Shown here one piece after another: positions 2,445-40,176 of a stretch of DNA of 48,396 nucleotides. The stretch's first letter is position 1; every line of letters starts with the position of its first letter. The DNA comes from a virus. A model generated the notes under the pieces. That model was not told where the DNA came from, searched no databases, and saw only the letters and a program-made list of their open reading frames with translations. The stretch lies in the IMG/VR virus record IMGVR_UViG_3300007523_000019, positions 1-48,396 of that record. One strand, 5' to 3'. Made by a program: the position numbers and the translations under genes.

Positions 2445-2459
2445 TGTTTATCTTGCTCC

Positions 2460-3854: not shown

Positions 3855-3908
3855 TCTATTACCTCTTTAACATTGTCGGACTGCCTCGCCCTTTTCACAT
3901 CTACATAG

Positions 3909-3954
3909 GTTGTGTGTAGTTGTGTGTAGTTGTGTAGTTGTGTAGTCGTATGTA
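3909..3954. repeat. Short GT-rich tandem repeat
   Basis: Two perfect gttgtgtgta units (3909-3928) are followed by two gttgtgta units (3929-3944) and a degenerate gtcgtatgta. The repeat lies in the 142-base gap between the start of the collagen-like gene at 3854 and the stop of the gene at 3997. It could be a slippage-prone element affecting expression of the 2460-3854 gene or simply leftover array; nothing distinguishes these. Confidence 0.7.
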
Positions 3955-3996
3955 CTACTTGACTGTTCAAAAAGCACAAATTCAAAATTGTATTCA

Positions 3997-4491
3997 TCAA
4001 CCAATCACAACAATATTCCAGGTTCCTGAAATCGTGCCAAATCCAGTGAAATCAATCTGAAGCTGTGTTGTATTGTGGAGAAATACCTCGCTTGGTATTA
4101 TTTGTTTATCATTATCGTCGTAAATTGTTACGCTGACGTACTTTTGATTAAGACTATGAGTGACTGACAAAATGCCCGCCGATAAGTCTACATCTGTAAA
4201 TGTTCGTCTATAGGCGACTGTTGTACTGGCAGAAAGCGTAAGTGCGGTCCAGTCGGCATTGGTTCCTGCCCAGGGTCCAACTTTCAGCGTCCAATACATC
4301 TGATCGGATTGAGTGAACACCAACATGCCAAATCGGCGACGATCATCAGGAATGGCATTTCGGGCAGTTAGGTCCGCAACAGAACGTAAGCCATCAATAC
4401 CGTAGCCCGGATCGGTTACAGCATATGTGTCAGTCGTATCTGTTGGGGCTAAAATGCCCGTTACGCTTACTGAGCCTGGAATCGCTGGCAT
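3997..4491 (-). CDS. Fibre-associated protein with shared C-terminal domain, no collagen shaft
   Basis: 164 residues. The first roughly 95 residues include DRRRFGMLVFTQSDQMYW, a pattern common in phage fibre head domains that bind neighbouring shaft subunits. The last 65 residues (FTDVDLSAGILSVTH ... GTISGTWNIVVIG) repeat the C-terminal domain of the collagen-like proteins. It therefore looks like the same architecture with the triplet shaft deleted or never acquired. It lies 12 bases after the 4504-6591 gene in the same transcription direction. The precise role is unknown. Confidence 0.75.
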   Translation of the reverse strand: MPAIPGSVSVTGILAPTDTTDTYAVTDPGYGIDGLRSVADLTARNAIPDDRRRFGMLVFTQSDQMYWTLKVGPWAGTNADWTALTLSASTTVAYRRTFTDVDLSAGILSVTHSLNQKYVSVTIYDDNDKQIIPSEVFLHNTTQLQIDFTGFGTISGTWNIVVIG

Positions 4492-4503
4492 TACATTTTA
4501 TCC

Positions 4504-6591
4504 TTACGCCACTATTATCGAGATGGCCCCGCCAAGAATGTTCTTAGAACGGTAAACACGATAATTAGTCGTTTGACTAAAAGCATTCGTGACAGATACC
4601 AGACCGTAAGACAAACTATTGGCTGTATTTGAAAAAAAAGCATCATCTGAACTACTTGCCATAGCCACATTTAAGTTAGTAGCCGCATCTTTAAAGGATG
4701 CTGGAGAGCCGAATGAAGTGGGAAAACAAAAGAACTTATAACCGCCTCCGGCATATGCAAAAGTTCCACTGTATCCGCTTGCCAATCCACTATTCGTCAA
4801 GGCTTCTATATCAGCCTCGGTGAGAGTAGTGTTTGTACTTGGTCCATAATATCTTTGCCAGAACCATGACACAGTGAATGTCGCCAAGAAATTCACTGAA
4901 TTGCTGTTGGTGCCTCTAATACTCCATTGATGAGATGCCTGACTCGTCTTTTGAATGGCCGTAGGCAAAGCAATTGCTTCCGTTCCATCATTTGCTGAAC
5001 CAGACACCAAAGTCACACTATTTGTAACATCTGAAATCAATATTGTATTGACGTTTATATTGCTGGAATTAGTTGTTGCCCATGTAAATGTTTTAGTCCC
5101 TGATATAGTGACGCCGACTTCTACACTGGTGGTTTGACCAGACATCGTAAATGAAGAAAAAGCAGGAGATTGATATGGATACAAGAGAGAATCCCACATT
5201 TGTTGCATAGTTCGAGAGTTAAATGTTGATCCTGAAGGGATGCCACCAATCGTAGAAGGGGTGGTCGCAGCGTTTGTATAAGAAACGGAAGCATCACTGC
5301 CTTGAAAACCTTGATTGCCCTGAAGACCAACATCGCCTTGATTGCCCTGAAGACCAACATCGCCTTGATTGCCCTGAAGACCAACATCGCCTTGATTGCC
5401 CTGAAAACCAACATCGCCTTGATTGCCCTGAAAACCAACATCGCCTTGAAAGCCGGTAAGTCCTTGGTTTCCTTGGTTTCCATCAATGCCCGCCAGTCCT
5501 TGAAAGCCGGTAAGTCCTTGGTTTCCTTGATTCCCATCAACGCCCGCCAGTCCTTGAAAACCAACATCGCCTTGAAAGCCGGTAAGTCCTTGGTTTCCAT
5601 CAATGCCCGCCAGTCCTTGAAAACCAACATCGCCTTGAAAGCCGGTAAGTCCTTGGTTTCCATCAATGCCCGCCAGTCCTTGAAAACCAACATCACCTTG
5701 AGAGCCAGTAAGTCCTTGGTTTCCTTGGTTTCCTTGGTTTCCATCAATGCCCGCCAGTCCTTGAAAACCAACATCGCCTTGAGAGCCAGTAAGTCCTTGG
5801 TTTCCTTGGTTTCCTTGGTTTCCATCAATGCCCGCCAGTCCTTGAGAACCAACATCGCCTTGAGAGCCAGTAAGTCCTTGGTTTCCTTGGTTTCCATCAA
5901 TGCCCGCCAGTCCTTGAAAACCAACATCACCTTGAGAGCCAGTAAGTCCTTGGTTTCCTTGGTTTCCATCAATGCCCGCCAGTCCTTGAAAACCAACATC
6001 ACCTTGAGAGCCAGTAAGTCCTTGGTTTCCTTGATTCCCATCAACGCCCGCCAGTCCTTGAAAACCAATGAACCCTTGATTTCCTTGAACTCCTTGAACT
6101 CCTGCTAGTCCTTGTGGACCTTGTTCGCCAACAACTCCCTGAAAACCTGCGCCTTGAACTCCTTGAACTCCTGCTAGTCCTTGTGGACCTTGTTCGCCAA
6201 CAACTCCCTGAAAACCTGCGCCTTGAACTCCTTGATTTCCTTGAACTCCTTGAACTCCTGCTAGTCCTTGTGGACCTTGTTCGCCAACAACTCCCTGAAA
6301 ACCTGCGCCTTGAACTCCTTGATGTCCCTGAACTCCTGTCGGCCCTTGAACTCCTGTCGGCCCTTGAACTGTCGATCCTTCGCCTTGAGCGCCTTGTGGT
6401 CCAATTCGACCTTGCGGTCCTTGACCACCAACTGTTCCAGGCGATCCTTGATGGCCTCGTGGTCCTGGATAGTTTTGTCCAACACGAGAAGAAACCACGA
6501 AGTCACGCATGTCTTGTGCGTTAATTAGACCCTGATTATTGTCAATAAACAGGGCTAACAGTTCAGCTTCGGTTCTTATCGTATTTGGCAT
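4504..6591 (-). CDS. Large collagen-like tail fibre protein
   Basis: 695 residues. The N-terminus (about 1-40: EAELLALFIDNNQGLINAQDMRDFVVSS) matches a head motif seen in many phage fibre proteins, where a short helix precedes the shaft. Collagen-like triplets run from about 42 to 431, first with Pro (GPRGHQGSPG), then as regular 24-30 residue blocks built from GFQGLAGIDGNQG and GLTGSQGDV, then as nine-residue GNQGDVGLQ blocks. Residues about 432-695 form a distinct Ser/Thr-rich globular tip unrelated to the C-domain of the neighbouring genes and probably carrying the receptor-binding or trimerising activity. The DNA repeats make the gene recombination-prone. Confidence 0.85.
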   Translation of the reverse strand: MPNTIRTEAELLALFIDNNQGLINAQDMRDFVVSSRVGQNYPGPRGHQGSPGTVGGQGPQGRIGPQGAQGEGSTVQGPTGVQGPTGVQGHQGVQGAGFQGVVGEQGPQGLAGVQGVQGNQGVQGAGFQGVVGEQGPQGLAGVQGVQGAGFQGVVGEQGPQGLAGVQGVQGNQGFIGFQGLAGVDGNQGNQGLTGSQGDVGFQGLAGIDGNQGNQGLTGSQGDVGFQGLAGIDGNQGNQGLTGSQGDVGSQGLAGIDGNQGNQGNQGLTGSQGDVGFQGLAGIDGNQGNQGNQGLTGSQGDVGFQGLAGIDGNQGLTGFQGDVGFQGLAGIDGNQGLTGFQGDVGFQGLAGVDGNQGNQGLTGFQGLAGIDGNQGNQGLTGFQGDVGFQGNQGDVGFQGNQGDVGLQGNQGDVGLQGNQGDVGLQGNQGFQGSDASVSYTNAATTPSTIGGIPSGSTFNSRTMQQMWDSLLYPYQSPAFSSFTMSGQTTSVEVGVTISGTKTFTWATTNSSNINVNTILISDVTNSVTLVSGSANDGTEAIALPTAIQKTSQASHQWSIRGTNSNSVNFLATFTVSWFWQRYYGPSTNTTLTEADIEALTNSGLASGYSGTFAYAGGGYKFFCFPTSFGSPASFKDAATNLNVAMASSSDDAFFSNTANSLSYGLVSVTNAFSQTTNYRVYRSKNILGGAISIIVA
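5306..6070 (-). repeat. Tandem DNA repeats in the collagen shaft
   Basis: Two families are visible. From about 5306 to 5452 a 27-base unit encoding GNQGDVGLQ or GNQGDVGFQ is repeated five times nearly identically. From about 5445 to 6070 longer units encoding GDVGFQGLAGIDGNQG plus GLTGSQ or GLTGFQ recur about eight times, with one to three inserted GNQ triplets. The near-identity at DNA level implies recent expansion. Confidence 0.9.
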
Positions 6592-7531: not shown

Positions 7532-7907
7532 TGGAGCCGAGGGGAGTCGAACCCCTGTGTGGCGATAACAAAATTAAAGCCTCTACACGCTTGTCTCTTT
7601 GTTCATTTGTCGGGCTTTCGGGACCACTCCGAGCAAAGGTCCATCAGCCTTATCGACCTATTTTCTCGTCTTCAGGTAAGTCGCCCACCTTCAGACCAGC
7701 AAGATTTTGCGGCTGACTTTTGAACGCTACTTGCGGCGCTTTCTCAGTCAGTGCCTAATTGCTTAGGCAGCAAGTGCTGCCGGAGCAGCACTTGGGAACT
7801 TAACAGTTTCGCCAGTTAAGGCTTGATCGAATTTTTGAGACGCCTTTCGATCAACGTCTGCGTGCCACTCTAACCTCATCCACCGCCGTCGAAACCGGGA
7901 CGGCCCC
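7532..7907 (-). ncRNA. ssrA: Transfer-messenger RNA (tmRNA)
   Basis: The molecule is about 376 nt. The 5' end GGGGCCG (7907-7901) pairs with CGGCTCC (7539-7533), leaving discriminator A at 7532. CCA is not encoded. The 5' strand carries the GGTTTCGACGG signature, and the 3' end carries a T-arm AGGGG-TTCGACT-CCCCT. Pseudoknot 1 is explicit: AGACG/CGTCT forms stem 1, and TTGATCG/CGATCAA forms stem 2. The tag frame follows it. tmRNA with SmpB rescues stalled ribosomes and tags the product for degradation. No smpB is seen in this window. A phage copy would have to use host SmpB or one encoded elsewhere. A TGGTTAACCA palindrome lies about 50 bases upstream (7957-7966). Confidence 0.95.
7763..7813 (-). 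other. tmRNA proteolysis-tag reading frame
   Basis: Resuming at GGC (7813-7811), the frame encodes GETVKFPSAAPAALAA and stops at TAA (7765-7763). The bases before the resume codon, TTAACT, and the opening GGC-GAA-ACT closely parallel the Bacillus-type start of tag (TAACT then GGC-AAA-ACT), which decided the resume codon. The tag ends in ALAA, the degron end recognised by ClpXP-type proteases. At 16 residues it is longer than the usual 8-15. Confidence 0.8.
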
Positions 7908-9640: not shown

Positions 9641-10417
9641 ATGATTTACTACCACGACCATCCAGAATATCGTATTGGCGATGAAATTCAAACTACCGCT
9701 TTAATCAAATATTTGAATCTCAAAGGACACGATGTCCATTACAAAGACTCAAATCCCTTTGTTTCAGCAATTGAACTATTCCCAGACAACCTAGTGGTTT
9801 TTGCCTCAGCAAATCATTTTGAATACCCAATTTTCGAGCCTTACAATATGTGGTTCTGGAACCCGTTGCTGCGAGAAAAGGGCATCTGGACCGATCTCAA
9901 GAATCACTACAGAGAAGAAGAAACCGATTTAGATGTAGTGTTCATTCCAGTATTGGCAGTTGGATATAACATAGAACGAGAAATATCCCCAGAGTCCGCT
10001 CTTGAAACATTCCAAGAACTATGCGGTCGCCATGAAAAGGTCTGCATGGTTATCGACGCCCGCAAAAAGCACATTATCAACATCGAGCATCCTGGTGTCA
10101 TCTACAGCAAAAATATCTACGATACGTTCAACTACGTCCGCAGAAGCAAGATATTTCTTGGCACAGACACAGGAACGACTCACTACGCCGGAGGCATCAA
10201 GCATCCAAGAATGATACTTGCGATGCCTGATGAAAAACCATTAGCAAAACACAATTGGCACAGAGAAGTAATTGCAGAACAATGCGATGAGCCAGAGATA
10301 TTGAAAATGGAATACTCATCGCTACCGTGTTGCGATCCAAAGCAATACCAATTCTTTTACATCGAAAATAACCAAGTGCCGCTCAGGAAAGTTCTGGATG
10401 CGATAGACAAAATTTAA
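9641..10417 (+). CDS. GT9/heptosyltransferase-like glycosyltransferase
   Basis: 258 residues with a GT-B-type nucleotide-sugar binding region near the C-terminus: FLGTDTGTTHYAGGIKHPR matches the G-x-D-T/S-G-x-x-H-x-A core of glycosyltransferase family 9 (ADP-heptose:LPS heptosyltransferases). It is shorter than typical heptosyltransferases (about 320-350), with a reduced N-terminal lobe. It stands alone on the plus strand and converges on the polymerase gene, sharing its last four bases (TTAA). A similar enzyme is at 47340. Possible roles are modification of host surface glycan or of virion proteins; the acceptor is unknown. Confidence 0.65.
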   Translation: MIYYHDHPEYRIGDEIQTTALIKYLNLKGHDVHYKDSNPFVSAIELFPDNLVVFASANHFEYPIFEPYNMWFWNPLLREKGIWTDLKNHYREEETDLDVVFIPVLAVGYNIEREISPESALETFQELCGRHEKVCMVIDARKKHIINIEHPGVIYSKNIYDTFNYVRRSKIFLGTDTGTTHYAGGIKHPRMILAMPDEKPLAKHNWHREVIAEQCDEPEILKMEYSSLPCCDPKQYQFFYIENNQVPLRKVLDAIDKI

Positions 10418-13008
10418 GCTGCAAACGCATCCTCTGGAGGGAGCGGGTCCATGTTTCTGAACTCAAGAACAATACTTCGACCACCACGAGCTTCGCTCAT
10501 GAATCGACTGAACAACAGCCCTTCATAGATAGGGTCTACATTCGTGATGCCCAAACAATAACACGTCAATGCGCCCACCGCCGAGCCTCGACCTGGACCG
10601 ACAGCTTGTGAACCATCACCAAACCCCAGAAGCTCTACACACACCCGTCGTGCTTCATCTGTCATCATCTTTTGAATCAAGAAGTAACTGGAGAAGCCCT
10701 TGCGGGTAATGAGACTGTATTCTTCTTTGATGCGATCTGTATATTCTCTGGTTTGTGGCAAACCACGCCACTTGAAGCCACGCATGACGAGTTCTTTGAG
10801 AGTTTCATCGGCATCTGGAATGACTGGCAATTTAAGCGAGCGATCAAGCTGAACACCCTTGGCTTTATTGCAGATTTCGACAGTCGTTCGCTTGGCTTCA
10901 CAGAAAAGCTCATAAGGCACAATATCCTTATAGTCTTTCTCCCACTTGGCATTCAGGTCTTCTTCAGACTTCATCCAAAGGTTGGCGTCCTGAAGCTCAA
11001 AGAAGTCTTGCATCTGATCCTGGGCAATAGCACTCTTGATCTCTTCCAGAGTACGTCCCGTTTGAACCATCAACATAAGCCGCTGAAAATGACTGTCTTC
11101 TGCTTGGCAGTAGTGACAATTAGAAACTACAGCCATGTTTGCCGTGAATGAATGATCTTCTTTAACTTGAAAATCATGAACATTTCCTTGGTAAACAATT
11201 TCATTGACCTCTTGAATTTTAATCAACCAATGTTCATTCTCGTAAGTCCACAAAGAAGAATTGCCTGTATCCTGTGATACACCACAAAGAAAATTGCTTA
11301 GCTTTTTCCCGGCGTCGCCAGAATAATTCAAATGCCAACATTGATTCCAATTAACATTTTTTTTCTTATCAACCGATGGAATTGACGGAAATCCCATTGC
11401 GTTTAACACAGAAGCTATCTCAAAAATCAATTTCTTGCTTGTGCTGTGAAAAGCAAAAACTCCATTCAAATAACTTCCATCACCAAACTGGTGACAAGCT
11501 ATAATTTGCTTGAATTGACTTTCACTGAATTTACCAATCCAAGTTCCACTAATATAAGGCAAATGTTTGTTAAGAGCCTTTTTGCCACATATTTTAGATA
11601 AAACCCTATTGAATACCTTGCTAGAAAATCTAATGGCAATCCCATTTTCAGAAACAGAATATTGCTTCACTTTGATGCCAAATTTGGAAAAATAAGCAAT
11701 TAAAAAATCAGCAACATCTTGTTCATGAATAGAAAGAGCAAAACCAACTTGGTACGAATTTGTGTCACTCCAACCTTCAGCAATGTACCATCCTAATACT
11801 CGACAAAATTCTTTATCTACAGGAAATAACTTCGGGATTTTAACTGTGGAATTGCCGCTAAATCCTCTTTGGGATAAATAATATCCGTCCTTCTCACGCA
11901 AGCCACATCGCAAATTATGTCTATTAGAATATGTTACTTCAGAATACAAATCTTCATCTTCGATGAATTCACTAAGATCAATGTAATCTAAATCTTGATT
12001 GGAAAAAAATGAACATTTTGAAAAATCAGGATAAACCAAACAATCGCCTTTTTTTAAATTCGATGTTTTAATCCAATTAAAATCGACCCCTTGTTTTACA
12101 TAAATTTTGTGATTTCCAGTTGATTGAAAAGAAAAAGTGCCAGCAGTTGCTTTGACTTCAAAAACTCTTTCATCATGATTTAGTTTACGACTGACTTTAA
12201 CTTCAATAGGACGATATCTATTATTATGTGTAAGAACCATGTCTCCAACATTTAAGTTTTCAATAAGTTGAAAACCTAAATGTGTCCAAATTAAAGTTCC
12301 ATCGACTAAACAGTCATTGGTGAGGATCAATTTCAAACCATACTTTTCTTTAGCCTTGATAATGAAGGCGTCATATGGTTTTTGTTTTTCAAAATCGAGC
12401 AACATGATTTCCAGCAAGTAGTGTTCCTTGCCGAACATCTCAATATATCGCTCGATCATAGCGAAAGCGGCGTCTTCACCGTGTTGGTCAAAAGCCCGTC
12501 CAACTTCACTGTTGTAGCAACAAGACGTGAAGAACAGTCCTTCCTTGTACTTCTGAAGCTGTTCGTAGTTGACACGAGGATGACGATAGAATCCCTTGGT
12601 CCACGCCCAGGATGATAGACGGACCAGATTCTTATAGCCTATTTCGTTGTAGGCAATAGCCAAAAGATGCGATCCTGCACGGCATTCCTTTTGTTCATCT
12701 TCATTTAGATCAGCCATGAACTTCTGCATGTCACCCAGACCGTTGGATTCGGGCTGAAGCCTGTTGACGTACAATTCACAGGCGAAGATGGGAGATAGGG
12801 TATCTTTTCCCTTTTTGTCATTCATCTTGTCACAGGCTTTGATTTGACGAGGGATGGCCCCCAACATGCCGTGATCTGAGATGGTCAAAAACTTTTGATT
12901 GATGAGTGGCGCACGAGTCGCATATTCCTCAACCATGCCGTAGCCATCGAGGGTGCTGAAATCCGTATGAAGGTGTAAATGTTCAAATCCGCAAATTTCT
13001 AGCGTCAT
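10414..13008 (-). CDS. dnaE: DNA polymerase III alpha N-terminal fragment (PHP domain) with intein
   Basis: 864 residues, of which 233-630 are an intein; the spliced protein is 466 residues. The start carries the PHP signature EHLHLHTDFSTLDGYG (His 10, 12, 14) and LTISDHG (Asp45, His46). After the intein the extein resumes with CHYCQAEDSHFQRLMLMVQTG, matching the DnaE region after TND. Near the end is VGPGRGSAVGALTCYCLGI, the conserved GPGRGS segment. The protein then stops about 40 residues later at EDAFAA. The PDxDxDF catalytic motif and the whole remainder of palm, thumb, fingers and beta-binding regions, about 700 residues in bacterial DnaE, are missing. The next gene is on the other strand, so no continuation lies here. 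It is either half of a split polymerase or a truncated relic. Confidence 0.85.
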   Translation of the reverse strand: MTLEICGFEHLHLHTDFSTLDGYGMVEEYATRAPLINQKFLTISDHGMLGAIPRQIKACDKMNDKKGKDTLSPIFACELYVNRLQPESNGLGDMQKFMADLNEDEQKECRAGSHLLAIAYNEIGYKNLVRLSSWAWTKGFYRHPRVNYEQLQKYKEGLFFTSCCYNSEVGRAFDQHGEDAAFAMIERYIEMFGKEHYLLEIMLLDFEKQKPYDAFIIKAKEKYGLKLILTNDCLVDGTLIWTHLGFQLIENLNVGDMVLTHNNRYRPIEVKVSRKLNHDERVFEVKATAGTFSFQSTGNHKIYVKQGVDFNWIKTSNLKKGDCLVYPDFSKCSFFSNQDLDYIDLSEFIEDEDLYSEVTYSNRHNLRCGLREKDGYYLSQRGFSGNSTVKIPKLFPVDKEFCRVLGWYIAEGWSDTNSYQVGFALSIHEQDVADFLIAYFSKFGIKVKQYSVSENGIAIRFSSKVFNRVLSKICGKKALNKHLPYISGTWIGKFSESQFKQIIACHQFGDGSYLNGVFAFHSTSKKLIFEIASVLNAMGFPSIPSVDKKKNVNWNQCWHLNYSGDAGKKLSNFLCGVSQDTGNSSLWTYENEHWLIKIQEVNEIVYQGNVHDFQVKEDHSFTANMAVVSNCHYCQAEDSHFQRLMLMVQTGRTLEEIKSAIAQDQMQDFFELQDANLWMKSEEDLNAKWEKDYKDIVPYELFCEAKRTTVEICNKAKGVQLDRSLKLPVIPDADETLKELVMRGFKWRGLPQTREYTDRIKEEYSLITRKGFSSYFLIQKMMTDEARRVCVELLGFGDGSQAVGPGRGSAVGALTCYCLGITNVDPIYEGLLFSRFMSEARGGRSIVLEFRNMDPLPPEDAFAA
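11119..12312 (-). mobile_element. Intein with in-frame LAGLIDADG homing endonuclease in DnaE
   Basis: 398 residues. It begins with Cys (CLVDGTLIWT) directly after extein TND and ends AVVSN before extein Cys (CHYC). Block B is STGNH (Thr65-x2-His68). Two LAGLIDADG helices are visible, VLGWYIAEGW at about 172-181 and IACHQFGDGSY at about 271-281. The C-terminal blocks are NVHDFQVKEDHSFTANMAVVSN. The penultimate residue is Ser instead of the usual His, which is tolerated in some inteins. The insertion site is within the PHP domain at an invariant Asn-Asp/Cys-His-Tyr junction. Both catalytic acidic positions of the endonuclease (Glu and Asp) are present, so it may still be mobile. Confidence 0.9.
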
Positions 13009-13306: not shown

Positions 13307-13918
13307 TCATTCCTGAATAAAATTGTGGTACTTGATCTCTTTGCCGACTTTCAAAATGTCTGGAGGAATAAACCCCAGCATTTTCGGCTGGCCTTTCCAG
13401 CGGTCGTAGTGTAGCCATAGCTCGCAACCTGGATATGTTTCCGAAGACATGAGCTTGGCTGGCCTTGCTTTATTATATGGGTGTTTAGTCATATCGACAT
13501 CGCCCACTTTTTCCAAAAACTCTTCCCACAAGACGTTGCACATCTGATGGATGATCTTGCCGTTAGCAACTCGAATAACAGAACCATCTTTGGATAATGT
13601 GATATACTGAAAATACTCTACCAGTACATCTCTCCCAATAACTGTTTCTGGATGATTGATGCCATAGAAAGGATCACGCATGGCAACAAGAATATCATTC
13701 TTCGACACCCTGGCTTTAATGGCACTACGGTATCTTTTGCCGCTCTTGGTCACTTGCCAACAATCTGTTTTCTCTTGGCAATCTTCAAAGAAGCTGCCTG
13801 GAACGAGATTATAACCGTGATCGGCATAATTGTCATTTAGGCATCTAATGACCTGTTCTTCTTTTTCTTTACCGTAACTTACACGAGCGCCGGGTGCCTG
13901 GGAGTCAATTGTCGTCAT
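13307..13918 (-). CDS. Hypothetical protein downstream of ClpP-like protease
   Basis: 203 residues. ATG 13918 (MTTIDSQAPGAR) was chosen over the in-frame ATG six bases earlier because AAGGA lies 7 bases upstream and the ATG overlaps the protease stop as ATGA. The central region includes EDCQEKTDCWQVTKSGKRYRSAIKAR, and the C-terminal third has CELWLHYDRWKGQPKMLGF. No family is assigned. Translational coupling to the protease suggests a shared function, but nothing more specific is visible. Confidence 0.75.
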   Translation of the reverse strand: MTTIDSQAPGARVSYGKEKEEQVIRCLNDNYADHGYNLVPGSFFEDCQEKTDCWQVTKSGKRYRSAIKARVSKNDILVAMRDPFYGINHPETVIGRDVLVEYFQYITLSKDGSVIRVANGKIIHQMCNVLWEEFLEKVGDVDMTKHPYNKARPAKLMSSETYPGCELWLHYDRWKGQPKMLGFIPPDILKVGKEIKYHNFIQE

Positions 13919-14592
13919 GAACATTTCCTTATTTTGTCTAGCGATTCATATCCAGGCTGTCCGAATACGCCGTCTGCTAATCCGTAATAGACAGCTTCTT
14001 CTGCACTGAGATTCCAATCGCCAAGTTTGCGTATTTTTTGGTCGATAAATTTAACCACCTGATTTTCGTTCATGTCATTTTGACGAAAAAAAGGACCGTC
14101 CACGGCTCTGCCCGCATATAGTCGAAGCATTCTCATGTCGGTCTTTTTGTTCCACGCCGCATTCGATTGAACTGTGGTCGCCACGCCTTCCAAACTCAAA
14201 AACCCACGATGAATCATGAACTCACAAGATGGCATCATGACTCGCTTACATGCCGCTTGTAACAGCACACTGCTCATCGAAGATACTTCCCCATAAGCCA
14301 AGATATTCACCGAAGACCGAGCCACTAAAATTGCGTCAAAAATAGCCATGCCGTGAATCCAATCACCACCTGGACTATGCAGATGAATCAGGATATTTTC
14401 TTCGGCATCCTGATCCAGCAAATTCAAATTCTTGATGAACTGAGTGGCCATCCGATATTCGATGCCACTCTCTTCATCGTGTCCAGAATAATGGCTGTGT
14501 AAATAGATTTCACGATTGAATGGATTCAAGTCATAATTATGAACCTGATTCACCAACTCCAGGAAATCAATTGAACTCTTTTTCTTTGCCAT
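13915..14592 (-). CDS. ClpP-like serine protease
   Basis: 225 residues with the ClpP fold signatures: ENILIHLHSPGGDWIHGMAI, then YGEVSSMSSVLLQAA containing the nucleophile Ser (equivalent to GxxxSMG), then MPSCEFMIHRG with the catalytic His, and EAVYYGLADGVFG in the region of the Asp. It is longer than bacterial ClpP at the N-terminus. No ClpX-type partner is next to it. In phages, S14-family proteases serve either as prohead maturation proteases or as stand-alone ClpP homologues. The position just after SpoVR and YeaH and far from the capsid gene argues mildly against prohead use. It could also act on tmRNA-tagged proteins. Confidence 0.85.
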   Translation of the reverse strand: MAKKKSSIDFLELVNQVHNYDLNPFNREIYLHSHYSGHDEESGIEYRMATQFIKNLNLLDQDAEENILIHLHSPGGDWIHGMAIFDAILVARSSVNILAYGEVSSMSSVLLQAACKRVMMPSCEFMIHRGFLSLEGVATTVQSNAAWNKKTDMRMLRLYAGRAVDGPFFRQNDMNENQVVKFIDQKIRKLGDWNLSAEEAVYYGLADGVFGQPGYESLDKIRKCS

Positions 14593-14752
14593 CTATTCTC
14601 TCAGCGTGTGACAGTGCATATATCGCACAATCTGGATGTTCTTCGACTACTCTGACCTTTATTCCAAGCTCGATCAAGACGAATTGGAGCCTAGACATAA
14701 ATTCATAAGAACTTTCTTCCTCATATACAGTCAATACTTTTGACTCATCCAC
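14567..14752 (-). CDS. Small hypothetical protein between SpoVR and ClpP-like genes
   Basis: 61 residues starting at GTG 14752 (M/VDESKVLTVYEEE), with AAGGAG about 10 bases upstream inside the end of spoVR. It overlaps the spoVR stop by 8 bases and the protease start by 26 bases. The product is a compact alpha/beta-looking sequence (FMSRLQFVLIELGIKVRVVEEHPDCAIYAL). No family is recognised. An internal ATG (MSRLQF) is an alternative start. Confidence 0.6.
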   Translation of the reverse strand: MDESKVLTVYEEESSYEFMSRLQFVLIELGIKVRVVEEHPDCAIYALSHAERIDGKEKEFN

Positions 14753-16337
14753 GCTTGATGTGCTCCTTACGAGACACAAGCTCCACGTCCTTTGTGCTGT
14801 CGGTCCCGTAACAGCAATAAACTTTCTCATTGCCATCTTCATCTTCAGATGCCAGATAGACATCTTCTCCCCACACTGCCCGCAGTGCGGTCAATACATC
14901 AAAGACATATGGCTCGTAAATATCACGACCATCAAAGTTGTGCTGAAGGAACATAGCTCCCTTGCCACGATAGTTCGGCTCTGTCAGGCGAATATCCGGC
15001 AAGCCGCCATTCAAATGCCTTCGGAGCAGAAGACGCTTGATGTCTTTGAACTCACGATTGTCAATTTTGAATTCACCATTCGGGAAGTGTTTCCAGTGGA
15101 AGTATTCTTGTTCACGGCAAAAGTCTTCAGTAAAGAACTCATGGAGCAAAGTGAAGTCGTCGTAATATTTGCGAACCTCGAAAATCTTCTCTTTACCCAA
15201 TCCGGCTTTCGTATCCCACTTTTCTTTGATTCGGATGTCGGTACATTCATCCCATTCAGGTCCGAACTGTCCCTTGTCCCAGCGGCTACGAATATCCCTA
15301 AGCAGGTAATATCCCAGCTTATATGGGTTCATAGAATACTTGCCGCCCAATACACCCATCTTGTGATCGGCGTATTCGATAATGCCGCAATCGTGACTCT
15401 TCTGTCCAAGTGCTACGAAACCCTGCTCGGCCATAATCACCGAGTCAGTCATCGACGCCCATCCTTCATTTATGGTCTTGGTCTGACGTTGCGGGAAGAA
15501 GTAAATTGCTTCTTCATATAACATCGACACAATATCGGCCTGCCACGGTTTCAGTGGTGCGTTATCTCTTAAATAAGCAAGGATGTTTTTGGTAGGCTCC
15601 TTAAAGACGCCAATTTCATCAGCGACATCTTGCTTAGAGATACGCTCGTTTTCTCGATCACGGAAATCCTTTGTGTTTAAGAAAGGCTCCATGTACATAC
15701 GGTCTTTGTTTACCGTCAATCGTCTTGGATGACGGTATGTTCTCTCGTCCCGAATGTTCTTTTCAGAAACGACTCGATCAGTCCAGGCTTCTGCTCCGTC
15801 GATCAAAGTTTCAAGCCTCATAACCCAATCCAAAAACTCAATAACACGTTCCTTGCCCCAACGAGCCATGTACTTACGAATGCGAGTGCCGTGATTGGCC
15901 ATCTTATTCAGCATGTTCGTATCGGTAGCGCTGAAGTGAATATTGTTCTTGAAAAAGTCATTGTGTCCTGTAGCGTGGGCAACAACGGTCAAGTGATCGA
16001 GCAGAGTATTGGAACTGAGATTGTAGATGTAGCACGGGTTGGTATTGATTACCATCTCGTAAATCTTGTGCATCCCAAACTCATATCCTCGCTGAAGTTC
16101 TTCATATTCCATACCGAAAGACCAGTGCGGGAAACGCACAGGAAAACCACCATAGGCGGCAATTTCACTGATCTCGTCGTAAGTCAACAACTGAACTACA
16201 GTTGGATAGAAGTCCAGACCCCAATCTCGGCAAGCCTGAAGAATCTTTGGAATATACATCTTCAGTTCTGGCGACAATTGCACGCCAGGAACCGTATTGT
16301 TGCCAAGTAGCATTGGCGCACCGTGCATGAATCCCAT
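14745..16337 (-). CDS. spoVR: SpoVR family protein
   Basis: 530 residues, close to bacterial SpoVR/YcgB (about 470-510). The N-terminal region has DWGLDFYPTVVQLLTYDEISEIAAYGGFPVRFPHW and EYEELQRGYEFG, and the middle has HATGHNDFFKNNIHF, all diagnostic of the family; the His-rich HATGHNDFF and the acidic residues around it look like a possible metal site. Its ATG shares one base with the stop of the YeaH-like gene (TAATG), with AGAGGA upstream. In bacteria SpoVR works with the kinase PrkA/YeaG and the vWA protein YeaH; all three are encoded here in one direction. The biochemical activity of the family is not established. Confidence 0.92.
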   Translation of the reverse strand: MGFMHGAPMLLGNNTVPGVQLSPELKMYIPKILQACRDWGLDFYPTVVQLLTYDEISEIAAYGGFPVRFPHWSFGMEYEELQRGYEFGMHKIYEMVINTNPCYIYNLSSNTLLDHLTVVAHATGHNDFFKNNIHFSATDTNMLNKMANHGTRIRKYMARWGKERVIEFLDWVMRLETLIDGAEAWTDRVVSEKNIRDERTYRHPRRLTVNKDRMYMEPFLNTKDFRDRENERISKQDVADEIGVFKEPTKNILAYLRDNAPLKPWQADIVSMLYEEAIYFFPQRQTKTINEGWASMTDSVIMAEQGFVALGQKSHDCGIIEYADHKMGVLGGKYSMNPYKLGYYLLRDIRSRWDKGQFGPEWDECTDIRIKEKWDTKAGLGKEKIFEVRKYYDDFTLLHEFFTEDFCREQEYFHWKHFPNGEFKIDNREFKDIKRLLLRRHLNGGLPDIRLTEPNYRGKGAMFLQHNFDGRDIYEPYVFDVLTALRAVWGEDVYLASEDEDGNEKVYCCYGTDSTKDVELVSRKEHIKRG

Positions 16338-17560
16338 TATGCTTCCTCTCTAATTGTGGCTGGATTGCCGAGCAACTTTTTGATCGCATCCATGATTTGC
16401 TCGTTCCGTTCGTCTTCGCTCAAAGTTGGTGGACTGTAATATCCTGCTGTCGATTTACCTTCAGTCGTCGGCCCGATAGAAACAGTTCTTACATATTCCT
16501 TGTCGAGACGACCAGCTTTGATTGCCTCGTCAACCTGATGTTTTACCGACCCATCATAAGTATATGACAATATCTGGGTGATGCCGGTGAAGTTCACCAC
16601 TTCAGGAGTGAACTCGTCCTGAAGAGTCTTGATGAAAGTCTCATTATCATCACCCCAATTTTCACCGTCAGTAAAGTAAAACACATAAATGTTCCACTTG
16701 TTCGGCGGGTAACGATTCTCAAACTGTTTGGTGATGAATTTCAATGCTGAGGAGCATGTGGTGCCGCCACCAAACCGATACTTATAGAATTTTTCTTCAT
16801 CGACTTCCATAGCCATCGAGTCGTGCCACACATACAGACGATCAACTCGGTCATAAAAGCGACGAATCCAAGTATCAATCCACCAAGACATATCACTGAT
16901 AATATCGCACTTGGCGTCGTCCATGCTGCCAGAGCCGTCACGAGCAAAGATCACCAACGCATTGCTGGATGGAATCTTAATCTCATTGAACTGACGGTAT
17001 CGCTTGTCTTCTTTGATGGGCTGCAATACTCTCACCGGGTCAGGAAGACCAGGAACATACTTGAGATTATTGAGAGTGCCTTCAGCAGCCTGACGCTTGA
17101 GAGTCTGCATCAGCGTGCGTCTATTGTGACGTAAAGATTCAGGTCCAATCAACGAAATGTTGTTGTATTTAATCTTGATTTCGTCATAGATTTCGTTTGG
17201 CTTCTTCTTCAGGTTCGGAAGTTGAAGTTCTTCCTTCATGAACTTGAGAACTTCTTCAAGGTCCAGGTTAATGGTGATGCCTTCGGTTTCGCCTTCTCCA
17301 GCCCCATTGCCTTTTCCTGGCTTTGGATCACGACCAATAACGTCACCATCTTTTCCAGGTCCACGACCAACACCATCATCGCTACTGCCATAAACAATAT
17401 GCGGGATGTCGATCTTAGGAATGGTGATTGCTATCTTGCCATTTTTACCACGATTTCGGACGATCTGGCCGCTCTTGATGAACTTCTTCAAAGCTCTCCG
17501 AATACGGCCAGATACTACATCTCTGAAATCTTTGTGGTCTTCTTCAATTCTGCGTGGCAT
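16337..17560 (-). CDS. yeaH: YeaH/DUF444 family protein with von Willebrand A domain
   Basis: 407 residues. The N-terminal part (MPRRIEEDHKDFRDVVSGRIRRALKKFIK) and the Gly-rich linker (GVGRGPGKDGDVIGRDPKPGKGNG) are typical of DUF444. The C-terminal half is a vWA-like domain with an intact MIDAS loop DGSGSMDDAK, a second element GGGTTCSSAL and FYFTDGENWGDDNE. GGAGG 6 bases before ATG 17560 supports the start. The family partners the Ser/Thr kinase YeaG/PrkA in enterobacterial stress survival. Here it sits between three small genes and spoVR, overlapping spoVR by one base. Confidence 0.92.
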   Translation of the reverse strand: MPRRIEEDHKDFRDVVSGRIRRALKKFIKSGQIVRNRGKNGKIAITIPKIDIPHIVYGSSDDGVGRGPGKDGDVIGRDPKPGKGNGAGEGETEGITINLDLEEVLKFMKEELQLPNLKKKPNEIYDEIKIKYNNISLIGPESLRHNRRTLMQTLKRQAAEGTLNNLKYVPGLPDPVRVLQPIKEDKRYRQFNEIKIPSSNALVIFARDGSGSMDDAKCDIISDMSWWIDTWIRRFYDRVDRLYVWHDSMAMEVDEEKFYKYRFGGGTTCSSALKFITKQFENRYPPNKWNIYVFYFTDGENWGDDNETFIKTLQDEFTPEVVNFTGITQILSYTYDGSVKHQVDEAIKAGRLDKEYVRTVSIGPTTEGKSTAGYYSPPTLSEDERNEQIMDAIKKLLGNPATIREEA

Positions 17561-17597
17561 TTATCCCTCCAAGATTCGGATAGACTTGTTCGGGTAA

Positions 17598-17780
17598 TTA
17601 TTTGTTACCGTAATTGAAGTCTCTGATCTGGATCAGGACTTCATCTTTTTGTTCTTCGGACAACGTGTCCGGGTCAGCATTAGAAAACTGCCGAATGATA
17701 GTTTCCCGACTGGCCCGCCGATTAACCAAGAAGCGTCGTTCCTCTTCGGCTGTGATTTCTTTAATCTCAAGCTGTTGCAT
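17598..17780 (-). CDS. Small hypothetical protein
   Basis: 60 residues, charged and probably helical (EIKEITAEEERRFLVNRRASRETI). AGGA 6 bases before ATG 17780 supports translation. It lies in the prkA-yeaH interval with two other small genes; no family is recognised. The Arg-Arg-Ala-Ser segment would fit a basophilic kinase site, which is only suggestive given PrkA nearby. Confidence 0.65.
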   Translation of the reverse strand: MQQLEIKEITAEEERRFLVNRRASRETIIRQFSNADPDTLSEEQKDEVLIQIRDFNYGNK

Positions 17781-17790
17781 ACTGAATCCT

Positions 17791-18006
17791 TTAGGGTGCG
17801 ATCAGTTCTACGCCGAATGACATATCGTCTGGGTCAGTCATGAAATCTCGAACAAGCATATTCATCAAGAAGTCTATTTGTTCATCATTGAGAGAAGCAA
17901 ACAAGTCACCCAAGGTGCCATCTTCGCCCCATACTTCAAGACCGATTTCGTCTATCTCTTTGAACAATTGTTTTTTCTTGGCGCAATCAAGCCAATGGTT
18001 ATTCAT
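17791..18006 (-). CDS. Small acidic protein, MNNHWL leader
   Basis: 71 residues from ATG 18006, which lies in the last codons of the upstream small gene (8-base overlap). The protein begins MNNHWLDCAKKKQLF and continues acidic (EVWGEDGTLGDLFASLNDEQ). Its first six residues and the surrounding 20 bases repeat those of the gene at 18199. No family is recognised. It sits between prkA and yeaH. Confidence 0.7.
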   Translation of the reverse strand: MNNHWLDCAKKKQLFKEIDEIGLEVWGEDGTLGDLFASLNDEQIDFLMNMLVRDFMTDPDDMSFGVELIAP

Positions 18007-18199
18007 GAGATCGTCCAATAAAACTCTTAAACGCTTCGTATATTTTCAAATCGTTCTTGACCAAACGTCCTTCAATATAAAAACCATCCTTATTCATTGC
18101 TATCATTTCTTTGCCATCGATGATAAACTTTATGTTGCCAGCGATACCAAAATTGTCGCTATCTTTGTTTCTCTTTGATTCTAGCCAATGATTATTCAT
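17999..18199 (-). CDS. Small hypothetical protein, MNNHWL leader
   Basis: 66 residues starting MNNHWLESKRNKDSDNF. The middle (GNIKFIIDGKEMIAMNKDGFYIEGRLV) is beta-rich and resembles small phage proteins with a beta-sandwich register, but no family is assigned. It ends inside the start of the next gene. The N-terminal hexapeptide is identical to that gene's. Confidence 0.7.
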   Translation of the reverse strand: MNNHWLESKRNKDSDNFGIAGNIKFIIDGKEMIAMNKDGFYIEGRLVKNDLKIYEAFKSFIGRSHE

Positions 18200-18289
18200 G
18201 AGATTGCCTAAAAATTAAATGAGTTAAAAATGAAATGAGAGAAGGGGATGGACTCTTGTGAATCCATCCCATTAAACCCTCAGACGAGA

Positions 18290-20368
18290 TTAGTCATCTT
18301 CGGCCAAATCGCCACGGGCGAAGATGCCGCCCACGAAGTCCAGAACATCAGTTGCCGACCGCTCGTTATACCCGTATTGCTTGATGAGCCGGGTCTTGAT
18401 AGCGTCGATCTTTTCCTGAATGTCCTTATCCACAACTGTTGCACCACTGACGTTCAAGGCACTCAGCTTGATGGTGTCCTTAACGTCCTCGAACAGCTTG
18501 GCTTCGAGAGCCTTGCGGAGCTTAGGATTGCTGTCCCAGCGGAACTGCTTGCCCTTGTGAGCCAAATCACCGATGAACGCTGCGATCTGACGGCGGAAGT
18601 CTTCACAGCCCGTATCCGGGATTTGAATCTTCTCTTCAATCTGTCGCATCAGTCGCTCATCCGGCTTGCGGTCTTGACCCGTGATTGGGTCTTTCATCTT
18701 CGACTTATTGATGAATGCCATCACGTTGTCGATATAGTTCGTGCAAAGCCGAATGATTGCGTCTTCGTCGCCCACAAGAGCCTTCTGTACCTCAGCCTTC
18801 AAGATTTCGGTCAGCTTCTTGAGAGCCAAGTCGATGCAGGAGATGTAACGACCGACCTGTTCCTTGTTGGACAATAGAGAAGAATGTTCCAGCCCATCCC
18901 GGAGTTCATTCAACACCATGAACATATTCACATAGTCATGGTTATTGGCCAAGCAATTGGAAATCTTATCCTGAAGGTATCGCACGGACACACCGCCCTG
19001 CATACCCTCATCAGGATACTTATCCTTCATTTCCTTGACGGCATCTTCTGTCCAACCAGCCAATAGCTTGTTGTCATACAGTTCGGCCTTCTCGATCAAA
19101 GAAATTTTGCCATCCTTGTCGTCGGCCAAACGGGTCAATACACTCCACAGAGCAGCAATTTCCAATGTGTGAGGAGCAATATGCTGCTTCACCTTGCCAG
19201 GACCATAATCCTTCTCCAAAATGCGGAGTTCTTCAGACCACTTGAGGGTGTAAGGAACGTCGATCTTGGTGGTACGGTCACGGAATGCTTCCATGTACTG
19301 ATTACTCTTGAGTTTCTGGAATTCTGGGTCGTTTGTGTGAGCTATGATCGCTTCATCAATACTGACCTGAGAGAACTTCTTCGGCTTGATGCTTTGCTCT
19401 TGCGAGGCACCCAAGAGGTCGTACAAGAACGCAGTATCGAGCTTCAGGGCTTCGATAAACTCGATGATGCCACGATTTCCGACACAGAATTCACCATCAA
19501 AGGAGAAGGCTCGTGGATCGGAGTCGGAACCAAAGTTGCCGATCTGACGGAAGTTGATGTCACCAGTAAGTTCGGTGCTGTCCTGATTCTTCTCGTCCTT
19601 CGGCTGGAAGGTTGCAATACCGCAACGATCCGCTTCGCTGTAGACCTTACGAACAACCCTGATGTGCTTCTCAAGCACTTGCTCCAGGTCGCCATCATAC
19701 TTCTTCAAGAAATAAGTCATGAACTTATTACACAGCGGATTCAACTCATCTGCACAACGCAGCGTATAAAGGTCTTGCTGCCGTTCTTCAGGAGAAATCT
19801 CCTCAAAAATACGATTCAATTCATCAATAATAGGTTGACGAACTTCGACTGGAAGCAACTTGAGAGGCTGCTCGTGCATCGGGCAAGGACATTCTGCTTC
19901 TGTGTACACACCATCTACACCAGTTGGTAGATTGACCCACTTGTAGGAGTACCATGCTCCTTGGTCTGTGCGGGAGAACTTCTCCATGCTTCGCTTGAGC
20001 AAGCGACACAGCGTTGACTTCGAGCTACCAACAGGACCGTGCAGCAAAAGAATACGGCGTTCTGTTCCGTAGCCACCAGCGGCTCCCTTGATGAACTTGA
20101 CCAGGGCGTCCTTCATTGGCGTTAAACCAATGATTGGATAATCTGGATCATCGAAGAAGTAATAGTTGGTATAGGTTTTTCGGTACTCTTCAGTCGTACC
20201 GGAACCCTTCTCCATAATCATGTCATAAAGTGTCTGCCAAGCGTTGCGAAGCAGAAACGGCTGCTTGTAACAAAGCTCCAGATACTCCCCGAAAGTCATT
20301 TCGGCGTGCAACGCACGGAATTGATTTCGGTTAAAGTTGCCAATTGCTTTCTTCAGGGTTGTTGTCAT
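18290..20368 (-). CDS. prkA: PrkA-type serine/threonine protein kinase (AAA+ fold)
   Basis: 692 residues from ATG 20368 (MTTTLKKAIG), with GGAGG 4 bases upstream. The P-loop HGPVGSSKST is at about 110-119, preceded by PIIGLTPMKDALVKFIKGAA, and the conserved GLE-like QYMEAFRDR and EELRILEKDYGPGK segments of PrkA/YeaG follow. Length is slightly above the bacterial norm (about 640). In E. coli YeaG acts with YeaH in nitrogen-starvation and stationary-phase survival, and in Bacillus PrkA affects sporulation. The kinase leads a run of same-strand genes to yeaH, spoVR and the ClpP-like gene. An inverted repeat 85 bases upstream (20453-20471) is a candidate operator. Confidence 0.92.
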   Translation of the reverse strand: MTTTLKKAIGNFNRNQFRALHAEMTFGEYLELCYKQPFLLRNAWQTLYDMIMEKGSGTTEEYRKTYTNYYFFDDPDYPIIGLTPMKDALVKFIKGAAGGYGTERRILLLHGPVGSSKSTLCRLLKRSMEKFSRTDQGAWYSYKWVNLPTGVDGVYTEAECPCPMHEQPLKLLPVEVRQPIIDELNRIFEEISPEERQQDLYTLRCADELNPLCNKFMTYFLKKYDGDLEQVLEKHIRVVRKVYSEADRCGIATFQPKDEKNQDSTELTGDINFRQIGNFGSDSDPRAFSFDGEFCVGNRGIIEFIEALKLDTAFLYDLLGASQEQSIKPKKFSQVSIDEAIIAHTNDPEFQKLKSNQYMEAFRDRTTKIDVPYTLKWSEELRILEKDYGPGKVKQHIAPHTLEIAALWSVLTRLADDKDGKISLIEKAELYDNKLLAGWTEDAVKEMKDKYPDEGMQGGVSVRYLQDKISNCLANNHDYVNMFMVLNELRDGLEHSSLLSNKEQVGRYISCIDLALKKLTEILKAEVQKALVGDEDAIIRLCTNYIDNVMAFINKSKMKDPITGQDRKPDERLMRQIEEKIQIPDTGCEDFRRQIAAFIGDLAHKGKQFRWDSNPKLRKALEAKLFEDVKDTIKLSALNVSGATVVDKDIQEKIDAIKTRLIKQYGYNERSATDVLDFVGGIFARGDLAEDD

Positions 20369-20558: not shown

Positions 20559-20894
20559 TTATTTCGCTTCGCCCCACGAGTCATTGCTTTCAAGGTCGTT
20601 TATTGAGTTGTATGGTTCGGCATTGCCACCATGTTCCTCTGCTGCTTGTCTTTCAGCAATAACCTTGGGCAAATTATGGTGGAACCGATAGTCATGTCCC
20701 GACGATGAACTATTCCAACGGTCAGTACCTTCAGGATTTGAAAACATAAAACTACAAGCTGAAACCAGCTTTTCTTTACGCTTACATCCACAATCAGGAC
20801 ACTGAACCCCTTTGTATTTATTGGTTTCATCGTAGGGGACCAACTCTTCGTACACCTTCTTGCACTTCTTGCATTCAAAATCGTAACGTGGCAT
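20559..20894 (-). CDS. FmdB-like zinc-ribbon protein
   Basis: 111 residues. The N-terminus MPRYDFECKKCKKVYEE with a second CPDCGCK pair forms the CxxC...CxxC zinc ribbon typical of FmdB/putative regulatory proteins; a SACSF segment follows. The C-terminal 60 residues are polar (SSSSGHDYRFHHNLPK) and probably disordered. Its ATG overlaps the TAA of the upstream gene by one base. The role is unknown; DNA- or RNA-binding is typical of such ribbons. Confidence 0.8.
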   Translation of the reverse strand: MPRYDFECKKCKKVYEELVPYDETNKYKGVQCPDCGCKRKEKLVSACSFMFSNPEGTDRWNSSSSGHDYRFHHNLPKVIAERQAAEEHGGNAEPYNSINDLESNDSWGEAK

Positions 20895-22995: not shown

Positions 22996-24423
22996 CTAAT
23001 CATCTTTTGTTAAAGACTCAGATTCAATCTGGGTCTTTATTTTTTTAAATAGATTGGTTGTGGATAGGCCAGCAATCATTGGAACAGTCACTACTTCGTT
23101 CACTATTCCGTAACCAACAATATCTTCTTTTTTATATTCACCGCCTTTTACCAATACATCTGGCTTAATTCGCTTGATAATTTCCAAAGGCGTTGGTTCA
23201 CCAAATGGGATGACAAAATCTACAAATTCCAATCCAGCTAAAAGTCGCATACGATCATCGAGAGAAACAAATGGGCGTCCTGGCTTGAACTTGGCGACAC
23301 TTTCATCTGTGTTCACAGCAACAACCAACTTATCGCCCAAACTTCATACATATCGAAGCGTTTCCAAATGACCCGCATGAAGAATATCGAAACAGCCATT
23401 CGTGAATACCAGTTTGTATTTTCTATTTTGAAATACCAATTCTGGATGTGTGTCAATAATTTTACCTGCGGTCGGGTCAAATATATGCAAAATATCGCTT
23501 CGATATAATGGCTTGTTGTGTCTATTCTTAACGTACAACGATCCTGCACGCCAAGCAATCTCCGCAGCTTCTCGAATTTTTATCTTGTAGCCTAATGACA
23601 TGGCCAAAAATGCAGTAAAGCAATCGCCAGCACCAATTACCGATTCGGCTGGTAGGAGTGCTTGAGTTGGACGAATCTCGTAGGTGCCAAGATCATCAAA
23701 TACAGTAACGCCCTGTCCTGCTTGAGTGATTATTACAGCCTTACAATTAAGCCTATTCAATAAATAGGCTCCAGCCTCATTGACGTTGCTGCAACCGGAC
23801 AATGAAAGTGCTTCTTCTTTATTTGGCTTGAAAATAGTACAACCTCGCCAACGATCCAAATCTCCAGATTTAGGATCAACAATGGTGATTGGACACTCAG
23901 GAATCAATAAATCTGTATATTTAGAAAATACACCTTTGTCATAATCTGAAAATATTAGAACATCAAAATGATCCGCTGTCTGTTGCGCCTTCTCGTAAAG
24001 CTCAAAGCATTTCTTATCTAAATCAGACCCCAACCCATAGTGTGGCTCCTCTACGTCCCACCTATAGGTGGGAAAATCATCACTATAAAATCTACGTTTT
24101 CGAGGAATACGAGTGAGTATATTCACGCACATGGCAGTATTGATTCCTTTTATCCTCAAAGCTGTATCTGCCGACTCATCAGTAAAGGAAATCAAATTGA
24201 CATTGGCATTAAAGTTTTTGAATTGATAAACGACGTTTGCTGCACCACCTGGAAAGTCCTGGGATTTATCCGTGTTGGAGTGCATGACGGGAATGGGAAA
24301 TTCCGGGGAAATCTTTTTGACTCGTACATTGAAATACTCATCGATCATGGCGTCCCCAATAACGCCAACTTTCACTGCTGGACTAATCGCTTCTAACTTC
24401 AAGAATTTTTCTAATATGCTCAT
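22996..24423 (-). pseudogene. hldE: HldE/RfaE-like bifunctional heptose kinase/adenylyltransferase interrupted by TGA
   Basis: Read through one TGA (23346-23344), the frame gives 475 residues, the length of bacterial HldE. The kinase part has the PfkB signatures FPGGAANVVYQFK and VIGAGDCFTAFLA. The transferase part begins VFTNGCFDILHAGHLETLRYV with the HxGH motif; the TGA follows, and the same frame continues SLGDKLVVAVNTDES, exactly the expected sequence. The missing residue would be Arg or Lys, so CGA to TGA is the simplest change. Without readthrough the products are a 359-residue kinase with a broken transferase, and possibly a 114-residue TTG-initiated remnant. ATG 24423 (MSILEKFLKLEAISP) is the chosen start; no clear Shine-Dalgarno is visible. 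Confidence 0.8.
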
Positions 24424-24443
24424 AACATAAGTAAGTATGTCAA

Positions 24444-24472
24444 CAAAAAAAGCCCACAACTTTGTTGTGGGC
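24444..24472 (-). terminator. Rho-independent terminator after thyX
   Basis: gcccacaac (24452-24460) and gttgtgggc (24464-24472) form a nine-base-pair stem with a three-base loop, followed by a run of seven or eight T residues on the minus strand. Confidence 0.92.
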
Positions 24473-40087: not shown

Positions 40088-40176
40088 GCGCTTTATCCTC
40101 AATTATACGATAATTATATTATCCAAACACCAGGATTGCTGAGTCGGAGATATAATTTAACTACAAGGAGTTTTTT

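Follow-up and report, generated by a model that had tools for sequence, protein, structure and literature searches.

An intact PrkA–YeaH–SpoVR module in large phages, possibly a protein-remodelling machine

Introduction

The closest described counterpart of the locus reported here is the bacterial prkA-yeaH-spoVR set (PrkA/YeaG, YeaH/YhbH and SpoVR/YcgB), three widespread bacterial proteins of unsettled biochemistry. Here we analyse the same three families in a virus record of 48,396 bp (IMG/VR record IMGVR_UViG_3300007523_000019), the whole of which is called the window and which reads as a phage fragment. The phage genes share family, order and strand with the bacterial set, and their motifs are intact. 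Aligned with bacterial copies, the phage proteins are about 48–54% (PrkA), 32–41% (YeaH) and 36–42% (SpoVR) identical. They differ from the bacterial set in being phage-borne, in the inteins carried by relatives, and in the ClpP-like gene that at times accompanies them.

Phage precedents exist. The Thermus phages phiYS40, TMA, YS40_Isch, MN1, phiLo and Lalka8/27a/27b carry all three genes, and several of their records annotate SpoVR and a serine kinase. In the four records read, the genes lie close together in the order YeaH-SpoVR-PrkA; the proteins are roughly 20–36% identical to those of the window, and PrkA falls on a distinct branch of the PrkA tree. An uncultured 595-kb phage (LR756511.1, unannotated) has the trio in the order of the window at 65/56/58% identity, with no ClpP match. 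In the Ralstonia jumbo phage RsoM2USA, SpoVR (ORF28) and PrkA (ORF30) are on one strand; the table of that paper gives best matches in Vibrio and Alcanivorax, and its available passages do not name YeaH (PMC8504454). The MoxR/vWA pair of group 2.2 jumbo phages, as described in PMC7824862, likewise brings together an AAA+ motor, a vWA protein and a metallopeptidase-type domain. This is a resemblance only: MoxR does not belong to the PrkA family, and the peptidase domain is fused to the vWA protein, whereas in the window SpoVR is a gene separate from YeaH.

That phages carry the trio is therefore already public, through the annotated Thermus phage records and, for SpoVR and PrkA, one paper's table. 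An open-access literature search found no paper joining SpoVR, YeaH and phage, and the open-access jumbo-phage papers surveyed did not mention SpoVR. What is new here is the breadth of carriage, the behaviour of the three genes as a unit, the inteins, and a lead on the fold of SpoVR.

The PrkA–YeaH–SpoVR locus

The three genes, and the ClpP-like gene that follows SpoVR, all score above their Pfam family cut-offs. The trio is arranged as follows.

18290..20368, minus strand: PrkA (YeaG-like) AAA+ protein, 692 amino acids (aa); PF08298 AAA_PrkA, E 1.3e-76; PF06798 C-terminal domain, E 5.8e-71
16337..17560, minus strand: YeaH (DUF444) VWA-domain protein, 407 aa; PF04285, E 1.4e-63
14745..16337, minus strand: SpoVR, 530 aa; PF04293, E 1.4e-104

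A preliminary description of this DNA had proposed a complete same-strand set in a phage, interspersed with small genes and with intact catalytic or binding signatures, and the present analysis bears this out. Small open reading frames (ORFs) of 60–98 aa are scattered among the PrkA, YeaH, SpoVR and ClpP genes. The P-loop of PrkA reads G111PVGSSKS118, and G111-P-V-G together with K117-S118 is found in 29/29 aligned sequences. The metal-ion-dependent adhesion site (MIDAS) of YeaH, formed by D208-x-S210-x-S212, T267 and D298, is retained in 59/59. The key residues of SpoVR are H71, E94, H121xxxH125, N290-E291-G292-W-A294 and D394, and H71, E94, H121, H125, E291 and D394 are present in 60/60 (each count includes the window). 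Disrupted active sites were seen only in one 146-kb contig (L059), which has frameshifts in all three genes; these are likely sequencing errors. The ratio of nonsynonymous to synonymous substitution rates between the window and its closest relative (L021) is ~0.03 for PrkA, ~0.03 for YeaH, ~0.02 for SpoVR and ~0.06 for ClpP; purifying selection on all four genes in phages is strong.

PrkA matches a solved chain over nearly its full length (9xip_A, phmmer E 3.2e-204; the sequence is identical in 9xiq and 9xir). For SpoVR and YeaH, sequence searches gave no solved structure at E ≤ 1. The AlphaFold2 model of YeaH matches solved VWA domains at Z 14–16; DUF444 is its sole Pfam family at E ≤ 0.001, and no vWA-metallopeptidase fusion was seen. 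Window PrkA and SpoVR do not reach the NCBIfam equivalog cut-offs for PrkA/YeaG (NF011999, 224 vs 576) and SpoVR/YcgB (NF008737, 167 vs 679). An anti-phage defence system was considered and rejected, as none of six window proteins matched a PADLOC model at E ≤ 0.01.

Co-occurrence in phages and bacteria

IMG/VR loci (n = 60) were recruited by YeaH alone, and the partners were thus unselected. PrkA is present in 59/60 of these loci, the miss (L039) being a contig that begins inside YeaH, and SpoVR likewise in 59/60, the miss (L043) being one that stops inside YeaH. The order PrkA-YeaH-SpoVR and the shared strand are constant wherever the genes are present, on contigs of up to 381 kb. Within a phage collection, PrkA and YeaH hit an identical set of 16 records (phiYS40 is represented three times and TMA twice), and the pooled results of two SpoVR queries show SpoVR in 15 of these. 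The exception is Enterobacter phage LAU1, whose yeaG starts at base 1 of the record, and we take its yeaG-yeaH to be a probable host flank. Among bacteria, 65 of 80 SpoVR-recruited loci show the same order and strand. The observation of the trio was right, and it extends more broadly than first claimed. Separately, the 642-kb phage LR756502 encodes a glutamate-synthase-like protein directly 3' of SpoVR (L068, 7488–9008).

Gain, loss and origin of the set

Conservation around the trio extends to a small ORF inside it and to genes on either flank.

20559..20894, minus strand: FmdB-like zinc-ribbon protein, upstream flank; TIGR02605 over cut-off; kept in a trio-less relative
17791..18018, minus strand: sORFb, small conserved ORF between PrkA and YeaH, 75 aa
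13078..13302, minus strand: orf74, downstream flank, 74 aa; conserved 3' of SpoVR or ClpP; kept in the trio-less relative

UvsX was used as an independent marker, giving 80 loci, of which 35 lie on contigs of at least 40 kb and were searched for YeaH; a capsid-protein marker yielded only 8 loci and was dropped. YeaH was found in 18 of the 35. By hand reckoning from coordinates, 13 of the 17 contigs without it end before or about its expected place (G052 and G053, at about 20–22 kb, are marginal cases), and four (G038, G040, G042 and G057) extend at least ~30 kb 3' of UvsX with no YeaH. Neither PrkA nor SpoVR was detected in six trio-less contigs, these four included, in searches run without a dedicated positive control.

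In G042, orf98b, the zinc ribbon, an sORFb homologue and orf74 stand consecutively (L263, 17807–19043); PrkA is lacking ahead of sORFb, and YeaH and SpoVR are lacking behind it. The homology of this sORFb has E 2.3e-8 by profile and 2e-6 by BLASTP. The whole trio is absent to either side of a gene that has been kept. Only in G042 is the loss seen at the very site, because the flanks were found there and not in G038, G040 or G057. As this is one genome, it is suggestive, and not proof, that the trio is gained or lost as a set. By hmmsearch, the sORFb family model matched L263 and 26/60 IMG/VR loci, 10 of which had served to build it; since it is retained in the relative that has no trio, sORFb is probably not a specific part of the set.

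A PrkA tree of 48 rows, built by a quick method, puts the window in a fully supported group with 12 further phage rows. The Thermus phages form a second branch, and the 635-kb phages group with the enterobacterial-type YeaG of LAU1. L060, a deep phage row, has no firm position, and the window clade as a whole, L060 included, is poorly supported (34). Because the tree separates the window clade, the Thermus phages and the 635-kb phages, the trio is present in at least three phage lineages; separate capture by each is likely, though not proven.

Inteins in SpoVR and PrkA

SpoVR carries insertions in 23 IMG/VR loci, many of them near-identical, where it remains a single open frame of 928–1375 aa. 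Translated across the split, the insertions are in frame and contain no stops in 14/14 cases (the frameshifted L059 was left out). Two sites recur, one after N98 and one after A294 of NEGWA. PrkA is interrupted in L044 before a Ser of the SDAR/FNFDGEF stretch and in L052 between GEF and CVGNRG. Some inteins thus lie directly beside invariant motifs, NEGWA in SpoVR and GEFCVGNRG in PrkA. L004, L008, L040, L044 and L052 exceed the cut-off of the Pfam intein-splicing model, and L051 narrowly misses it (35.3 vs 35.8). LAGLIDADG domains occur in the SpoVR and PrkA inteins of L004, L008, L040, L044, L051, L052 and others. The shorter insert of LR756504 (L066) scores 16.2, far below the cut-off; its position and ends are the sole grounds for calling it a putative intein. 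No paper mentioning SpoVR together with inteins turned up in our open-access literature search.

A metal-centre lead in SpoVR

An alignment of 60 phage and bacterial SpoVR sequences shows no variation at H71, E94, H121, H125, N290, E291, G292, A294, N337, P338, Y339 and D394. In 16 phage sequences, among them those of Thermus and 635-kb phages, the same residues are kept with the exception of N290. The HxxxH motif and later NEG(W)A resemble the HEXXH...NEG(F)A arrangement of M1 aminopeptidases. HEXXH and a later Glu are the elements with assigned roles in zincins.

An AlphaFold2 model of SpoVR (mean predicted local distance difference test score, pLDDT, 82.5) places H121 and H125, one helical turn apart, in a helix at 112–131 and E291 in a helix at 287–304. 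Compared with solved structures by VIA-align, its eight best rows (Z 8.2–10.4) are M1 or M32 zinc enzymes, followed by other zincins. LTA4 hydrolase heads the list (Z 10.4, root-mean-square deviation of 4.1 across 191 residues); next come IRAP and two M32 carboxypeptidases at Z 8.6. A second group of matches (GdpP, histidine racemase, the Grb2 SH2 domain and others) at Z ~4–5 concerns mainly the C-terminal part.

Several results weigh against a zincin assignment. Residue 122, at the place of the catalytic Glu of zincins, is V in 46/60 and A in 14/60 sequences, and the HEXXH Glu is therefore replaced throughout. Foldseek returned no match to the model at E ≤ 0.001. The structural comparison tool itself warns that Z below ~13 may reflect a common arrangement for helical proteins. 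Profile comparison by hhalign of SpoVR with M1 and M32 gave no signal; as the M1–M32 positive control was also negative, this result says nothing about SpoVR homology. Given the insignificant Foldseek search, the ambiguous Z scores, the replaced Glu (60/60) and the silent profiles, a zincin-like SpoVR is proposed as a lead from modelling and not as membership of that class. SpoVR would, on this lead, bind a metal ion, and the hypothesis points to specific residues to mutate.

Proposed function

The module is complete, intact and under selection. We suggest that a lineage of large phages keeps it and gains or loses it as a set, and that it most likely encodes a remodelling machine with a metal-binding SpoVR; taken as a whole, we give this account an even chance of being correct. 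Pairs of AAA+ and VWA proteins are known remodelling machines. PrkA would act as the AAA+ motor of an ATP-driven protein-remodelling machine, and YeaH would be its VWA partner, with the MIDAS metal site holding a client or SpoVR. SpoVR, with its putative zincin-like fold, would bind metal, and its His-x-x-x-His and downstream Glu (NEGWA) would form the working centre. The phage would probably use such a machine to reshape or disable certain proteins, either those of hosts that grow slowly or are under stress, or its own. The data themselves establish the presence and order of the genes, their intact motifs, purifying selection, co-occurrence, a joint absence in one relative and inteins next to conserved sites; the assembly of PrkA, YeaH and SpoVR into one machine, metal binding by SpoVR and the targets of the machine are what we infer from these patterns.

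A fuller version of this account is advanced only tentatively. The trio would be a distinct AAA+/VWA/metalloprotein machine with no kinase cascade; SpoVR would have a zincin fold lacking the HEXXH Glu and would work through H121/H125/E291 plus H71 or E94; phages would have captured the set at least three times for a need during infection; and homing inteins would have settled beside conserved sites.

Some observations pull against the remodelling account. YeaH is missing from 4/22 informative UvsX-bearing contigs, and the module is thus not universal in its lineage. In LR756502, SpoVR lies ~244 kb from PrkA-YeaH. Finally, YeaG is reported to phosphorylate AceA in vitro (PMC8055822, 2021), which favours a kinase.

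This last result bears on the reading of the preliminary description, that the module could impose a starvation-like state on the host or exploit one, here with PrkA as a Ser kinase acting alongside YeaH and SpoVR. E. coli yeaG is reported to be needed to adapt to sustained nitrogen starvation (PMC4664914), and the phage copies are intact, as such a role would have it. Against this, Bacillus PrkA is described in PMC13001217 (2026) as having no kinase activity, autophosphorylation included, and no protease activity, and no kinase P-loop is present in its C-terminal domain. That it oligomerises with ATP counts in favour of the remodelling machine. As PMC13001217 and PMC8055822 conflict, the kinase label is disputed, and we regard a starvation kinase as unlikely in the phage.

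A chaperone role in the assembly of phage particles or replication complexes, like that of the jumbo-phage MoxR-vWA pairs, seems to us improbable to a similar degree. The authors describing the MoxR-vWA-metallopeptidase pair propose virion assembly (PMC7824862). In Thermus phage Lalka27a the trio sits between portal/minor head genes and TerL, and in phiYS40 two annotated protein genes separate PrkA from TerL. Elsewhere, however, the neighbours are non-structural, with ribonucleotide reductase near the trio of L060 and topoisomerase plus an Hsp70 piece near that of LR745206, and a relative retains the flanks with no trio. A virion-assembly neighbourhood was consequently rejected as a general rule, having been seen only in the Thermus phages.

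The occurrence of the whole set in separate lineages, its joint absence in one relative and the inteins together suggest that the three proteins act together and that infection could be used as an assay. The small Thermus phages (records of 69–77 kb), which infect T. thermophilus and carry the set, make the question testable.

The ClpP-like gene

Two further genes follow SpoVR in the window.

13915..14592, minus strand: ClpP-like serine peptidase, 225 aa; PF00574 CLP_protease, E 5.9e-25; triad S105/H128/D192
13307..13924, minus strand: protein of 205 aa with no Pfam, PHROG, PADLOC or NCBIfam match

The preliminary description had a ClpP-like protease attached to the trio. An intact gene does follow SpoVR in the window, and the residues that we take to be its triad, from known ClpP, are present in 19/19 aligned sequences (window included). 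It is not a fixed member of the unit: it is found between SpoVR and orf74 in 23/60 IMG/VR loci, and in 9/25 module-bearing records, being absent from the other 16, which include the 595-kb LR756511 and the 381-kb contig. Its pattern on the YeaH tree requires four changes. Because only 23/60 loci have it, the gene is an accessory, an optional extra to the trio. The protein falls below the NCBIfam ClpP cut-off (TIGR00493, 58.8 vs 308.6). The 205-aa protein has tblastn matches beside ClpP in 7/60 loci.

The ClpP-like protein could be a head-maturation protease placed here by chance, which would be compatible with any reading of the trio. In PHROG it is matched best by head maturation proteases (phrog_94, E 2.5e-23), and a scan of the window ORFs recognised no other protease beside the capsid gene. 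The NCBIfam head-maturation model, on the other hand, is not reached (NF045542, 62 vs 120), the gene lies ~31 kb from the capsid gene, and related records of up to 595 kb lack it. We consider this assignment doubtful.

It is highly unlikely that PrkA serves as the unfoldase of a phage Clp-type protease. The position at the SpoVR/orf74 junction in those 23 loci and the conserved triad would fit such a complex. The peptidase is nevertheless missing from most module-bearing records, no homologue was found within the stretch examined in 80 bacterial SpoVR-recruited loci, and neither residues specific to ClpP-bearing phages (7 vs 22 sequences) nor a conserved IGF-like loop tracking ClpP was found in PrkA. 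On these grounds of patchy presence, bacterial absence and no tracking PrkA residue, ClpP was rejected as a fixed partner of PrkA.

Viral nature of the window and neighbouring genes

That the trio sits on a chromosomal fragment or at a prophage edge is scarcely credible, even though LAU1, with yeaG-yeaH from the first base of its record, may be such a case elsewhere. As the preliminary description stated, gp23- and gp32-like proteins are encoded in the same genome: PHROG matches identify a gp23-like capsid protein at 45524–46687 (phrog_138, E 2.2e-16) and a gp32-like single-stranded DNA-binding protein at 43032–44027 (phrog_224, E 2.8e-19). With a UvsX-like recombinase, ThyX and collagen-type tail fibres, phage genes are spread along the window. 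The ribosomal S7 family was found in 0/25 module-bearing records (13/14 control genomes were positive), and 8/25 have phage capsid matches. In the PrkA tree the phage clade stands apart from bacteria. Tree, capsid matches and S7 absence together led us to reject a bacterial-chromosome origin, the alternative that the preliminary description had raised. Misassembly is also unlikely, because L021 is 95–98% identical to the window with the same gene order.

Other features of the window were noted. Three collagen-repeat tail-fibre genes lie in a row, with one small gene among them (1131–6591, minus strand), and a fourth similar gene runs off the window start. The phage encodes a transfer-messenger RNA (7532–7907, minus strand) with the tag AAPAALAA. 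A DnaE-like ORF (10414–13008, minus strand) combines a PHP domain with an intein and just the beginning of the polymerase NTPase domain, and its frame stops where the catalytic part would be expected next; a similar piece, with no intein, occurs in a trio-less relative (L264). HldE, a heptose kinase/adenylyltransferase, seems split (22996–24459, minus strand) by a frameshift or a true division: domain I and the opening residues of domain II are encoded in the frame at 23344–24459, and the remainder of domain II in that at 22996–23340. A DEAD-box helicase resembling Holliday-junction/Hel308 types (30261–33476, minus strand) contains an intein-like stretch (PF14890 below cut-off). A putative amidoligase (PF12224) is encoded at 39056–40102 on the minus strand.

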